DNA of 64,000 bases. Source: Leucothrix mucor DSM 2157. Lineage in GTDB: Bacteria > Pseudomonadota > Gammaproteobacteria > Thiotrichales > Thiotrichaceae. The notes beneath the pieces are model-generated. The model ran no database searches and was not told the DNA's origin. It saw only the letters and a program-made list of their open reading frames with translations. A program made the translations under genes and the position numbers. Of this stretch, positions 37,745-41,860 are shown piece after piece. Positions within the stretch are counted from its first letter, which is position 1, and each line of letters begins with the position of its first letter. The DNA lies in the NCBI RefSeq assembly GCF_000419525.1, contig NZ_ATTE01000001.1:1860001-1924000 (forward strand). The letters are read 5' to 3'.

Positions 37745-38443
37745 ATGGCACGACAAAGCGACAGTATCTCCCCATCCATTCTTTCTGCGGACTTTGCACG
37801 ACTGGGCGAGGAAGTTGATAACGTACTGCGATCCGGTGCGGATATGGTGCATTTTGATGTAATGGACAACCATTACGTGCCTAACCTGACCATTGGCCCC
37901 TTGGTTTGTGAGGCTTTACGCAAGCATGGCGTTACTGCAGACATTGATGTGCATTTAATGGTAAAGCCCGTTGACCGGATTATCCCTGATTTTGCTAATG
38001 CGGGTGCCAGCTACATCTCCTTCCACCCTGAAAGCTCCGAGCACATCGACCGCAGCCTGCAACTGATCAAAGATCATGGCTGTAAAGCAGGTTTAGTATT
38101 CAATCCGGCTACCTCCCTCGATGTGCTGGAATATGTGATGGATAAAGTTGACCTAATCCTTTTAATGTCAGTTAACCCTGGCTTTGGCGGTCAATCATTT
38201 ATCCCCTCCACTCTGGTCAAACTGGCACAAGCCAGAAAGCTGATTGATGACTCTGGTTATGATATTCGTTTGGAAGTCGATGGTGGCGTTAAAGCCAACA
38301 ATATTGCTGAAATTAAAGCAGCAGGTGCGGACACGTTTGTGGCTGGCTCAGCTATTTTCGGCGCGGCCAATAAAGACGATCCGAACCACTACGACTCTAT
38401 TTGCAAAGCCTTCCGCGAGCAACTGGCACTAGCCAAAATCTGA
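37745..38443 (+). CDS. rpe: ribulose-phosphate 3-epimerase
   Basis: Interconverts ribulose 5-phosphate and xylulose 5-phosphate. The 232-residue TIM barrel has [30 protein letters not shown] (metal His/Asp), [22 protein letters not shown] and [10 protein letters not shown]. It precedes the trp leader and trpE, as in many Gammaproteobacteria, though the phosphoglycolate phosphatase gene often found between them is missing. Confidence 0.96.
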
Positions 38444-38511
38444 ACTGCTTGATACGTGACATAATGATTGGGAAACGTTAGACTCATGACATACAACAGG
38501 AAACCCATAAC

Positions 38512-38547
38512 ATGAGATTAAATCTGTACAAACATTGGCGATGGTGA
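38512..38547 (+). CDS. trpL: trp operon leader peptide
   Basis: An 11-codon open frame reading MRLNLYKHWRW then TGA, with two Trp codons at positions 9 and 11. AGGAAA lies 8 nt upstream of the ATG, a good ribosome-binding site. It is followed at once by a hairpin and T tract, and trpE starts 56 nt after its stop. This is the classic layout of a transcription-attenuation leader: when charged tRNA-Trp is scarce, the ribosome stalls at the Trp codons and the terminator does not form. Function is inferred from sequence and position only. Confidence 0.82.
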   Translation: MRLNLYKHWRW

Positions 38548-38571
38548 AGCTTCTTTTAGATTAGCTTTTTT
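38546..38571 (+). terminator. trp attenuator terminator
   Basis: AAGCT (38547-38551) pairs with AGCTT (38563-38567), with an extra inner TCT/AGA pairing. T6 runs over 38566-38571. The stem is short, so it is a modest terminator. It overlaps the leader-peptide stop codon. Confidence 0.6.
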
Positions 38572-38603
38572 ACCTATTTAATTGCTTCAACAGGTTTATA
38601 TTC

Positions 38604-40085
38604 ATGAAAAGAGAGACTTTTCAGTCCTACATCGCGCAGGGCTTTAATCGCATTCCATTAATCCGTGAAGTTCTGGCGGATTTGGACACCCCACTAAGCA
38701 CCTATCTCAAGCTAGCAGATGGCCAATACAGCTATTTGTTTGAATCTGTTCAGGGCGGTGAAAAATGGGGTCGTTATTCCATTATCGGCTTACCCACTCA
38801 AAAGACGATCCATATTCGCGACCATCAGGTTGAAATTCGCCTGAATGACACCGTCAGCGAGCAGTTTGAAGTTGCCGACCCTCTGGATTGGATTGAGACC
38901 CTGCAAGCCGAATTCAAAGTCCCTGAAGTACCTGAGCTGCCTCGCTTTACTGGCGGCTTAGTGGGTTACTTTGGCTATGAAACTATTGGCTATATCGAGC
39001 CTAAACTTGCAGATCTGAAAAAAGCCGACACAATTGACACACCCGATATCCTACTTATGGTATCTGAAGAAGTGGTGGTATTTGATAACCTTGGCGGCAA
39101 ACTCTATCTGGTTGTACATGCGGATGCCGATGGCTATGACACTGCCCAAGCACGCCTACAAGCGCTGCATGAAAAATTACGTGAGCCACTAAGCTATCCA
39201 CTGGATCATATTCCGGATGAAGTGGCGACCAAAGAGTCTGACTTTATTTCTTCATTCCCGGAAGAGGACTTTAAACAAGCAGTGAGCGATGCACGCGAAT
39301 ACATTTGCGAAGGCGATGTCATGCAGGTGGTCATTTCTCAACGCCTGACGATTCCGTTTACCGCATCACCACTCGACTTATATCGTACGCTACGTAGCCT
39401 GAATCCTTCCCCATACATGTACTTCCTGCAACTGGGCGATTTCCAGATTGTTGGCTCGTCACCGGAAATTCTGGTTCGACTGGAAGATGAAGAAGTCACC
39501 GTGCGTCCAATTGCCGGAACTCGCCGCCGTGGCGCTGATGAAGCACACGACAAGCGCCTTGAAGAAGAGCTACTAAGCGATCCAAAGGAGCTTGCCGAAC
39601 ACTTGATGCTCATTGACTTAGGCCGCAATGATGCTGGTCGCGTCAGTCAAATTGGTACGGTTGAGCTCACTGAAAACATGTGCGTAGAGCGTTACTCTCA
39701 CGTTATGCACATCGTTTCCAATGTCTGCGGCAAACTGAACCCTGAAATGAGCGCGATGGATGTACTGCGTGCGACCTTCCCTGCCGGTACCGTAAGTGGT
39801 GCACCTAAAGTACGCGCGATGCAAATCATCAATGAGTTAGAGCCCATTAAGCGCGGCATCTATTCTGGTGCAGTTGGCTATCTCTCTTGGAATGGCAATA
39901 TGGATACTGCGATCGCTATTCGCACCGCAGTAATCAAAGATAAGCAGCTACACATTCAGGCGGGTGCCGGTATCGTTTATGACTCCGTACCGCAGTCTGA
40001 ATGGGATGAAACCATGAACAAAGCGCGAGCCATTATCAGCGCAGTCGCCGAGTTAAATAAAGGCTTGGACAAGGGAGTACATTAA
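38604..40085 (+). CDS. trpE: anthranilate synthase component I
   Basis: Makes anthranilate from chorismate with ammonia supplied by TrpG, the first step to tryptophan. The 493-residue enzyme has the N-terminal Trp-binding region ([20 protein letters not shown] near 43-62) and NPSPYMYF of the feedback site. [36 protein letters not shown] and the closing [10 protein letters not shown] catalytic segment follow. It is preceded by a Trp-rich leader peptide and followed by trpG after 1 nt. Confidence 0.97.
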
Positions 40086-40086
40086 A

Positions 40087-40677
40087 ATGATTCTAATGCT
40101 AGATAACTATGATTCATTCACCTACAACCTGGTTCAGTACTTAGGCGAACTGGGCGCGGATGTTGTGGTACGCCGTAACGATCAAGTGACATTGCAGGAA
40201 ATTCATGACATGCAGCCGGAGCGCATTATGCTATCACCCGGCCCTTGCACGCCATCTGAAGCCGGTATTCTGCTGGATACCATTGATGAGTTTGCTGGCA
40301 AGCTGCCGTTATTTGGCGTGTGCCTTGGTCATCAAGCCATTGGCCAAGCGTTCGGCGGCAAGGTGATTCGTGCGAAACAAATCATGCATGGTAAAGCTTC
40401 GCCTATTCACCATACCGGTGTGGGTGTATTTTCTGGCCTGAGCAACCCGTTCGTTGCTACCCGCTACCACTCACTGGTTGTTGAGCATGAAAGCTTTCCG
40501 GATTGCCTGGAAATCACCGCATGGACTGAAAACGAAGATGGCTCGATTGACGAGATCATGGGACTTCGTCATAAAACGCTGGATATCGAAGGCGTACAAT
40601 TTCATCCGGAGTCCATCCTCAGCGAACACGGTCACGATATGTTACGCAACTTTTTAGAGGGCAAGCCACGCACATGA
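40087..40677 (+). CDS. trpG: anthranilate/aminodeoxychorismate synthase glutamine amidotransferase
   Basis: Class I glutaminase subunit giving ammonia to TrpE (and possibly to PabB). The 196-residue protein has [15 protein letters not shown], the LSPGPCTP oxyanion region, the nucleophile in [15 protein letters not shown] (Cys near 79), and His/Glu in [10 protein letters not shown]. trpD and trpC do not follow. Instead an RDD membrane-protein gene overlaps its stop by ATGA, so the four genes trpE-trpG-RDD-CPBP seem to be one transcript. Confidence 0.95.
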
Positions 40678-41117
40678 GTACTACAGGCTATTTGCCAGCG
40701 AGCTTTTTAAGACGCATCGGCGCGATTTTTTACGACTCCATGTTGGTGGTATCGTTTTTGTTTGTTGCTGGCATGCTCAGCATGAAAGGCATGATGTTAG
40801 CAATGGGCCTTGAAAATGTGCCCGCCGGCAGCATTGCCGCTAAAGTGTTTTTTGTTTATCTGGTGCTACTGGCTTATCTATTCTTTGCTTGGTTTTGGAT
40901 TCATGGCGGCCAAACATTGGGTATGCGTGCTTGGAAAGTCAAACTGATTCGCCAAGATGGTATGACTATTTCTTGGGGACAGGCTTTTTTACGTTTCTGC
41001 TACTCGATCGTCAGCTGGGTGCCACTCGGCGCAGGATACCTGTGGTCATTAATCGACAAAGACAAGCAGGCTTGGCATGACAAAGCCTCTCACTCTTACC
41101 TGATTGATATAAGATAA
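40674..41117 (+). CDS. RDD family membrane protein
   Basis: A 147-residue inner-membrane protein of the RDD family: [24 protein letters not shown] at the start with the Arg/Asp signature, a second helix about 60-80, and [14 protein letters not shown] before a third. The family is loosely linked to ion or small-molecule transport, but no specific function is known. It overlaps trpG by 4 nt and the CPBP gene by 1 nt. Confidence 0.85.
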
Positions 41118-41860
41118 TGGAACCGCAAACTTCTCCAAAGACGATTGGTGTGGCACAGACGCTATGGCTATCATTTTTGGTCGTGCTGGTCTTGGGCTTT
41201 ATACAGTACTCCGTACTGGTTAACTTTGCTGAAGCACAAATGCTCAAGCAGCCGGATGCTGACCGTACCGAGCTCCTAATTGGCTTGCAGTATGATGCCA
41301 TGGTGGTCAGTCTATCTGAGATTTTTGGTGGACTGATTGCTGGCGCGATGCTGGTTTTGCTTGTCTTTCTGCGAGGGATTCCAGTTAAGCCCTATTTTGG
41401 GCTGGAGCCATTTTTAAAGCGCGATCTATTCAACTGGTTTTTAGTCGTCGTGGCAATTACGCTGGCCTTTACCTTGATGACTTGGTTGATTTCGCACGAG
41501 CAATCAGACTTTATGCTACAAGTCTGGCAGTCCTGCGATAATGTGCTTTTACTGGTTTTTGCAATTGCAGTAGTCGCGCCCATTTTTGAAGAGCTACTAT
41601 TTCGTGGGTTTATCTTTACCGGCCTGCGTAACAGCACATTGGGAACCGGTGGCGCTATAGTCATGAGCTCGGCACTGTGGGCTATTATCCACCAGCAATA
41701 TGGCTCGTTTGAACTGATCTTTGTGTTCTTACTCGGCACTGTGCTCGCTATCTCCCGCGTCGCCAGCAAGTCGCTCTATGTCCCTATTATTTTACATATG
41801 CTCAATAATCTATTCGCCATCGTACAAATAGCAATGACGGCGGAAAGCGTGGCAAAATAA
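41117..41860 (+). CDS. CPBP family intramembrane metalloprotease
   Basis: A 247-residue membrane protease of the CAAX-protease/bacteriocin-processing family. About six hydrophobic helices. The catalytic pattern is intact: EELLFR with Glu158, Glu159 and Arg163, His192 in WAIIHQQYG, and His227 with Asn231 in LHMLNN. Substrate unknown; relatives process prenylated or secreted peptides or act in stress responses. The start overlaps the RDD stop (TAATG). No terminator is obvious before pepA. Confidence 0.87.
   Translation: MEPQTSPKTIGVAQTLWLSFLVVLVLGFIQYSVLVNFAEAQMLKQPDADRTELLIGLQYDAMVVSLSEIFGGLIAGAMLVLLVFLRGIPVKPYFGLEPFLKRDLFNWFLVVVAITLAFTLMTWLISHEQSDFMLQVWQSCDNVLLLVFAIAVVAPIFEELLFRGFIFTGLRNSTLGTGGAIVMSSALWAIIHQQYGSFELIFVFLLGTVLAISRVASKSLYVPIILHMLNNLFAIVQIAMTAESVAK

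Follow-up and report, generated by a model that had tools for sequence, protein, structure and literature searches.

The textbook example of a ribosome controlling the termination of transcription is attenuation of the trp genes, and the E. coli trpL-type transcription attenuator is represented in Rfam by the Trp_leader family (RF00513). In translational attenuation of the ermC type, by comparison, stalling of a ribosome on the leader frees a sequestered Shine-Dalgarno (SD) sequence, the stall being caused by an antibiotic. The ermC leader is mentioned in an excerpt of PMC2965389. In Actinobacteria, the LEU element before leuA contains a run of Leu codons that pairs with the leuA SD, inside a proposed pseudoknot (excerpt of PMC1262725), and in mycobacteria the speed of ribosome elongation on Cys-responsive, leaderless polycysteine upstream open reading frames (uORFs) is reported to regulate the downstream genes (Canestrari 2020, as cited in the excerpt of PMC9031893). 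Attenuation of trpE in Pseudomonas putida appears as an entry in the references of PMC8297930 (Olekhnovich and Gussin 2001).

The locus described here lies in a 64-kb window (the whole stretch of DNA that was analysed) from a genome of 5.19 Mb, and its features are collected in Table 1. A preliminary description had placed AGGAAA 8 nt ahead of an 11-codon frame, MRLNLYKHWRW followed by TGA, with Trp codons at positions 9 and 11 and trpE downstream, all of which is borne out by the sequence. Trp-rich short frames occur in bulk 64-kb sequence, so it is location and recurrence that matter; the window holds two ATG frames per strand that have two or more Trp among their final seven residues, the leader included. 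There is no second near-identical copy of the leader in the genome, where a search at up to three mismatches returned one match. Promoter-like sites in the region scanned number two against 0.9 expected, which is weak on its own; by eye, both putative promoter hexamers are also found at L002, L004, L006 and L007 and are absent from L003 and L005.

Table 1. Features of the trpE leader region and of the genes that follow it, in window coordinates
Feature	Position	Strand	Evidence or detail
Putative sigma-70 promoter	38456..38484	+	GTGACA (38456-38461), 17 nt, TAGACT (38479-38484)
AGGAAA, likely Shine-Dalgarno of leader ORF	38498..38503	+	sequence; 8 nt to ATG
P1 extension CAUGAG (leader start codon)	38511..38516	+	pairs with UUCAUG 38601-38606 (trpE start codon); minimum-energy fold only
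Leader ORF MRLNLYKHWRW	38512..38547	+	11 codons, ATG 38512, TGA 38545-38547
P1 leader strand UAAAUCUGU, anti-Shine-Dalgarno, codons 3-6	38519..38527	+	fold, duplex search, covariation
TGG CGA TGG, presumed regulatory Trp codons 9 and 11	38536..38544	+	TGG at 38536-38538 and 38542-38544
Nested hairpin P2, GGUGA 38543-38547 with UUACC 38570-38574	38543..38574	+	minimum-energy fold
Short stem and T6, judged non-terminator	stem 38547-38551/38563-38567, T6 38566-38571	+	scan, fold, family count
P1 trpE strand ACAGGUUUA	38590..38598	+	fold, duplex search
trpE Shine-Dalgarno AGGU	38592..38595	+	4/4 nt paired in P1
trpE, anthranilate synthase component I	38604..40085	+	Pfam PF00425, PF04715; ATG 38604
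trpG, class I glutamine amidotransferase	40087..40677	+	Pfam PF00117
RDD-family membrane protein	40674..41117	+	Pfam PF06271
Rce1-like (CPBP) membrane protease family	41117..41860	+	Pfam PF02517

The trpG, RDD and Rce1-like genes lie close behind trpE on the same strand, so that a single four-gene operon, trpE-trpG-RDD-Rce1-like, is plausible from the gene arrangement. RDD-like and CPBP-like membrane genes are also seen by eye after trpG at L002, L004, L006, L007 and L023, and a link of these membrane genes to tryptophan metabolism is possible. Elsewhere in the genome, 1.26 Mb from trpEG, there is a PF00591 gene (G000:C1:635999-636751, locus L233), presumed to be trpD, at which no Trp leader is visible by eye.

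The preliminary description was to be given up if the peptide or its Trp codons were not conserved in relatives, but conservation is what was found. In the order, 53 of 63 genomes carry trpE, all listed under a single family, and the upstream regions of 52 of these were read (G063 was left out, its match being cut at a contig end). ATG frames 7-28 codons long, at most 250 bases upstream of trpE, were counted when two or more of their final seven residues were Trp; 35 of the 52 family regions have one, against 0.35 expected from dinucleotide shuffles. The KHWRW ending is present in 7/7 genomes of the window's genus, while WRWRS, WRWCS and WLWI are frequent elsewhere in the family and W-R-W or W-L-W is common, so that terminal Trp pairs recur between genera and the codons upstream of them vary. 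A leader with such codons should put trpEG under the control of charged tRNA-Trp, as had also been claimed, and its recurrence in relatives is in keeping with that. For the helix and terminator analyses 41 family leaders were picked by hand, and 11 of the 52 regions were dropped as having no leader under the criteria (L017, L019, L024, L036-L039, L042, L043, L049 and L053). At L049 a longer frame containing RWR, and possibly a pairing, can be made out by eye, the frame exceeding the length limit.

The entire leader is absent from six genomes of genus g2 (L019, L036-L039 and L042), in which the TAGACT hexamer is followed by a short 5′ UTR and then trpE. On a trpE gene tree of 18 rows, the presence and absence of the leader needs three changes, at least two of them forced by supported branches, and L018, with a leader, and L019, without one, are sister rows, suggesting that its absence in g2 reflects two or more events. 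Such strains, standing next to leader-bearing relatives, amount to natural deletions.

Folding of the leader region had been proposed as a way of finding alternative pairings, and one does emerge, a helix (P1) that joins codons of the leader to the SD of trpE; the terminator sought at the same time does not, since a consensus scan of 38200-38800 returned 0 sites, with 0.4 given by shuffles. P1 comprises 9 bp in the window (-9.1 kcal/mol), and the whole leader fold there is no better than that of shuffled sequences (z -0.79, 39/200 as good). The predicted extension of P1 to the two start codons is weak evidence because CAUG is self-complementary. Within the fold, the GGUGA strand of P2 is formed by the end of the last Trp codon and the stop codon, and GGTGAA/TTTCACC, akin to P2, is seen by eye in some relatives of the same genus.

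In a search of each leader against the 40 bases that precede trpE, the strongest duplex takes in part or all of the SD in 31/41 family members; in 8/10 members of g2, as well as at L010 and L048, it lies just upstream. With positions -24..-1 as the target, cognate duplexes of the 41 leaders average -13.0 kcal/mol, against -6.2 kcal/mol for inter-genus swaps (1380 combinations), and in derangements restricted to one genome per genus 0/2000 were as strong as the cognate pairing. Swaps of partners within a genus average -11.2 kcal/mol (260 combinations), so that related genomes cannot be counted as independent. P1 of the window is one of the weaker helices, 19% of inter-genus swapped partners being equal or better. 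Judged against shuffles, 36/41 family leaders pair with trpE -26..-1 at p<0.05, compared with 2/27, 1/41 and 3/41 for the control windows -52..-27, +4..+29 and +28..+53, respectively, and 1/41 when the sequence upstream of the leader takes the leader's place. The SD is at least half paired in 40/41 family leaders; at L048 leader-SD pairing is absent.

Additional elements are found in some genera. In g2 (L011, L015, L018, L030, L035, L040, L041 and L052) a second segment, for example GGAAGTGTTTCAT, lies just upstream of the SD, often shares GGAAG with it and pairs with the leader start at -14.5 to -19.3 kcal/mol; it may be a decoy that competes for the anti-SD. In g5 (L020, L022, L023, L026, L027 and L044-L047) a conserved type of hairpin, GTCTTTTGAAAAAAAGAC, directly follows the leader stop, with paired variants in L027, L045 and L047. 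At L034 about 100 extra bases with the ends GCCCGGCG...TTGCCGGGC lie between the leader stop and trpE, by eye resembling an inserted element, and the leader-SD helix is kept around them.

Covariation was assessed in aligned rows that hold 32 of the 41 leaders, in a group of 22 and a group of 10; the rows do not include L005, L010, L012, L014, L022, L025, L041, L048 and L050, which either were duplicates or lacked the anchor. The 22-row group (genera g1, g3, g5, g7 and g8) was anchored on hand-checked CTGT-like and AGG-like motifs, with L026 reset by hand, and since these motifs form the core of the helix, such anchoring works in favour of the core pairs. In this group 85.2% of cells are paired, falling to 23-44% when the partner is slid; 26 cells are double-changed against a shuffled mean of 12.1 (0/500 shuffles), and 7/12 pairs change on both sides, a figure that 18/500 shuffles reach. 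A series within g8 illustrates the point, a single pair reading C-G in L008, U-G in L031 and U-A in L009. The 10-row group (g2 and one g6 genome), for which the first Trp codon and the SD's GGA served as anchors, is 88% paired and its columns vary little; with 3 double-changed cells (9/500 shuffles) and two pairs changed on both sides (84/500), it shows little covariation beyond column make-up and would not convince alone. The pattern taken as the mark of a translational attenuator, an SD paired with the leader together with covariation, is therefore found in the family, weakly in the g2/g6 rows.

The placing of P1 relative to the Trp codons was modelled with a ribosome taken to occupy -14 to +15 relative to the P site. 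In silico, a ribosome waiting at the first Trp codon of the window's leader covers 100% of the P1 leader strand and one at the stop codon 0%, the corresponding family means being 82% and 9%. In 37/41 leaders a stall at the first Trp codon hides half or more of this strand, in 33/41 the stop position masks a quarter or less, and both hold in 29/41. In a partition-function model, the predicted openness of the SD in the window is 0.11 with the leader free, 0.55 with the stall at the first Trp codon and 0.10 with the ribosome at the stop (family means 0.14, 0.42 and 0.26), and openness at the first Trp codon exceeds that at the stop in 31/41 family leaders (Wilcoxon p 0.00028). L009, L032 and L033 (g8) have a distant first Trp codon, the stall hides 28-36% of the strand and no opening is predicted. 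In six of the 10 g2 leaders the model gives the SD greater openness with the ribosome at the stop than with a first-Trp stall, probably owing to a competing segment.

Similar leaders are present beyond the family. Among 113 genomes of the class with trpE, 87 regions were analysed (the remainder being 13 already covered by earlier sets and 13 not retrieved). Candidate leaders with RW-type endings precede trpE in many other gammaproteobacteria, and 62 of the 87 regions have a candidate. After setting aside the 25 regions without a candidate and 10 more by score or length, 52 leaders were kept, of which 21 pair with the SD window at p<0.05; control counts were 2/52 and 4/52 for the coding windows, 2/34 for the middle window and 7/52 for sequence upstream of the leader. 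A named set of 42 leaders, chosen by hand from 80 loci with L066 left out as a family member, gives 14/42, against 3/42 and 0/42 (coding), 5/34 (middle) and 8/42 (upstream); L058, L059, L061, L064 and L065, with pairing p from 0.047 to 0.96, were left out of this comparison of windows. Examples of SD pairing are L085 (Thiotrichales bin102), L072 (Thiogranum), L121 (Ectothiorhodospiraceae), L193, L202 and L208, and no significant leader-SD pairing is seen for Pseudomonas profundi L131 (p 0.62) or for Halomonas L114 and L128. Modelled SD openness does not differ significantly between first Trp codon and stop (class 32/52, p 0.094; named set 23/42, p 0.55) and so was not counted as support. Leader-SD pairing of this kind elsewhere in the class suggests that such control of trpE is widespread, but because the upstream control is raised and the model gives no significant stall effect, the mechanism, stall geometry included, is only tentatively assigned beyond the window's family.

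The conserved RNA feature is a helix between leader codons and the trpE SD, which points to control of translation and not of termination, and the locus is most probably a Trp-responsive translational attenuator of trpE with an anti-SD encoded in the leader. This reading draws on evidence that is computational throughout, namely the leader, its Trp codons, the predicted helix, covariation, geometry and the absence of any conserved terminator. With charged tRNA-Trp in good supply, the ribosome would pass both Trp codons and reach the TGA, leaving P1 free to form, and the trpE ribosome-binding site would then be closed and trpE not initiated. When charged tRNA-Trp is scarce, the ribosome would wait with Trp codon 9 in its A site, where it would sit on the P1 leader strand, blocking P1 and exposing the trpE site so that trpEG could be translated. 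A poorly translated mRNA may, in addition, become exposed to Rho or RNases. In vivo stalling, the direction of the effect and co-transcription with the membrane-protein genes are parts of this scheme that we infer.

The preliminary description had favoured classical transcription attenuation, in which the ribosome on the leader selects between an antiterminator and an intrinsic terminator at 38547-38571. The leader with its Trp codons, the short stem and the T6 do all exist, attenuation has been reported for trpE of Pseudomonas putida (in the reference list noted above), and elements that pass a strict terminator rule occur at L006, L014, L023 and L027. A looser scan, which accepted any single hairpin before a T-rich stretch, gives candidates in 33/41 family loci, the window included, and at L012 a stem immediately before T6; having no shuffle control, it was not relied on. 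The stem itself, AAGCT/AGCTT, has 5 bp with two G-C pairs and an 11-nt loop and folds at -2.0 to -4.2 kcal/mol, too weak to be called a terminator, and there is the empty consensus scan besides. Counted over the family loci that have a leader, the interval from leader to trpE holds a terminator-like element in 4/41, against 3.0 (sd 1.6) expected. By eye, the stem and T6 are not kept at the same position in six genomes of the same genus, one of which (L006) does carry a different terminator-like element. In five of the six the T-run adjoins the SD with no stem before it; as in most of these five it pairs with leader AAACA, its candidacy as a terminator tail in these relatives was rejected, as was that of 38547-38571 as an intrinsic terminator. 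The covarying helix, moreover, ends at the SD and has no U-run after it. Of the proposed terminator, the stem and T6 stand as sequence, a terminator function being unsupported, and in place of a conserved terminator there is a conserved helix that targets the trpE SD. An intrinsic terminator could still act in single genomes, and classical attenuation is a highly improbable account of the locus.

A Rho-dependent scheme, in which P1 stops translation of trpE and Rho then terminates the untranslated mRNA within the gene, fits the sequence data because P1 is the first step in both it and translational attenuation and no intrinsic terminator is necessary; the covariation, however, is explained without Rho. 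We consider it rather unlikely that Rho is involved in this way, and the scheme overlaps with the translational attenuator as a further step of it. Plain translational coupling, by which translation of the leader would open P1 regardless of Trp and the Trp codons would be incidental, would likewise require a translating ribosome to open the helix, and is consistent with the stall position having no significant modelled effect in the wider sets. Against this, terminal Trp pairs recur across genera though the codons upstream of them differ, and the geometry suits the first Trp codon over the stop in the 29 leaders noted above, which leaves coupling of this kind improbable. For the Trp-responsive translational attenuator, the significance is that a Trp-codon sensor before trpE appears to be wired to translation initiation, the leader's own codons serving as the anti-SD. 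If true, this would explain why in one group many leaders are of the NLYK/NLFK type, pairing with ACAGGUU, and in another of the FPNK or a similar type, pairing with UUUGGAA, and it is a warning against dismissing leaders that have no terminator. A broader proposal, that Trp leaders encoding an anti-SD are a common and perhaps ancestral control of trpE in non-enteric Gammaproteobacteria from which the textbook terminator version was derived, is one that we put forward tentatively and regard as somewhat doubtful.

Known RNA families do not account for the locus. At E<=10, Rfam gave only two matches in 38300-38800, both to eukaryotic families at chance level and far below gathering scores, with no T-box riboswitch among them; the Trp_leader model had no match at this threshold in the same interval or at gathering in 15 relatives, where Rfam at gathering returned two tRNAs and no leader family. 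No description of leader-SD control of trpE was found in a literature search from whose coverage most subscription journals fell outside, and since the comparative papers of Vitreschak et al. 2004 and Merino et al. 2008 also lay outside it, an earlier prediction is possible.

Like E. coli trpL, the leader described here is a short peptide with nearby Trp codons before trpE, and RNA pairing reads the position of the ribosome; it differs in having no conserved intrinsic terminator, the target of the pairing being the trpE ribosome-binding site. Pseudomonas putida trpE is gammaproteobacterial too, and in Pseudomonas profundi there is an RWRW-type leader candidate, MMKALARWRWRT, for which pairing with the SD is not significant (L131, the p value being given above). 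The mycobacterial polycysteine uORFs, as excerpted, share the principle of an amino acid-responsive uORF upstream of the regulated genes, but they are leaderless and polycysteine, with another amino acid and phylum than the Trp leader. As in ermC, the SD would be freed by a stall on the leader, the signal in this case being, by inference, hungry Trp codons and not an antibiotic. The nearest precedent found, within the excerpted sources, is the LEU element, in which the Leu codons themselves pair, whereas P1 is formed by codons 3-6, upstream of Trp codons 9 and 11, so that the pairing strand lies under the stalled ribosome; the gene and the phylum are also different. Translational attenuation by leader peptides is therefore already known, and it is its use at trpE in Gammaproteobacteria that is apparently new.
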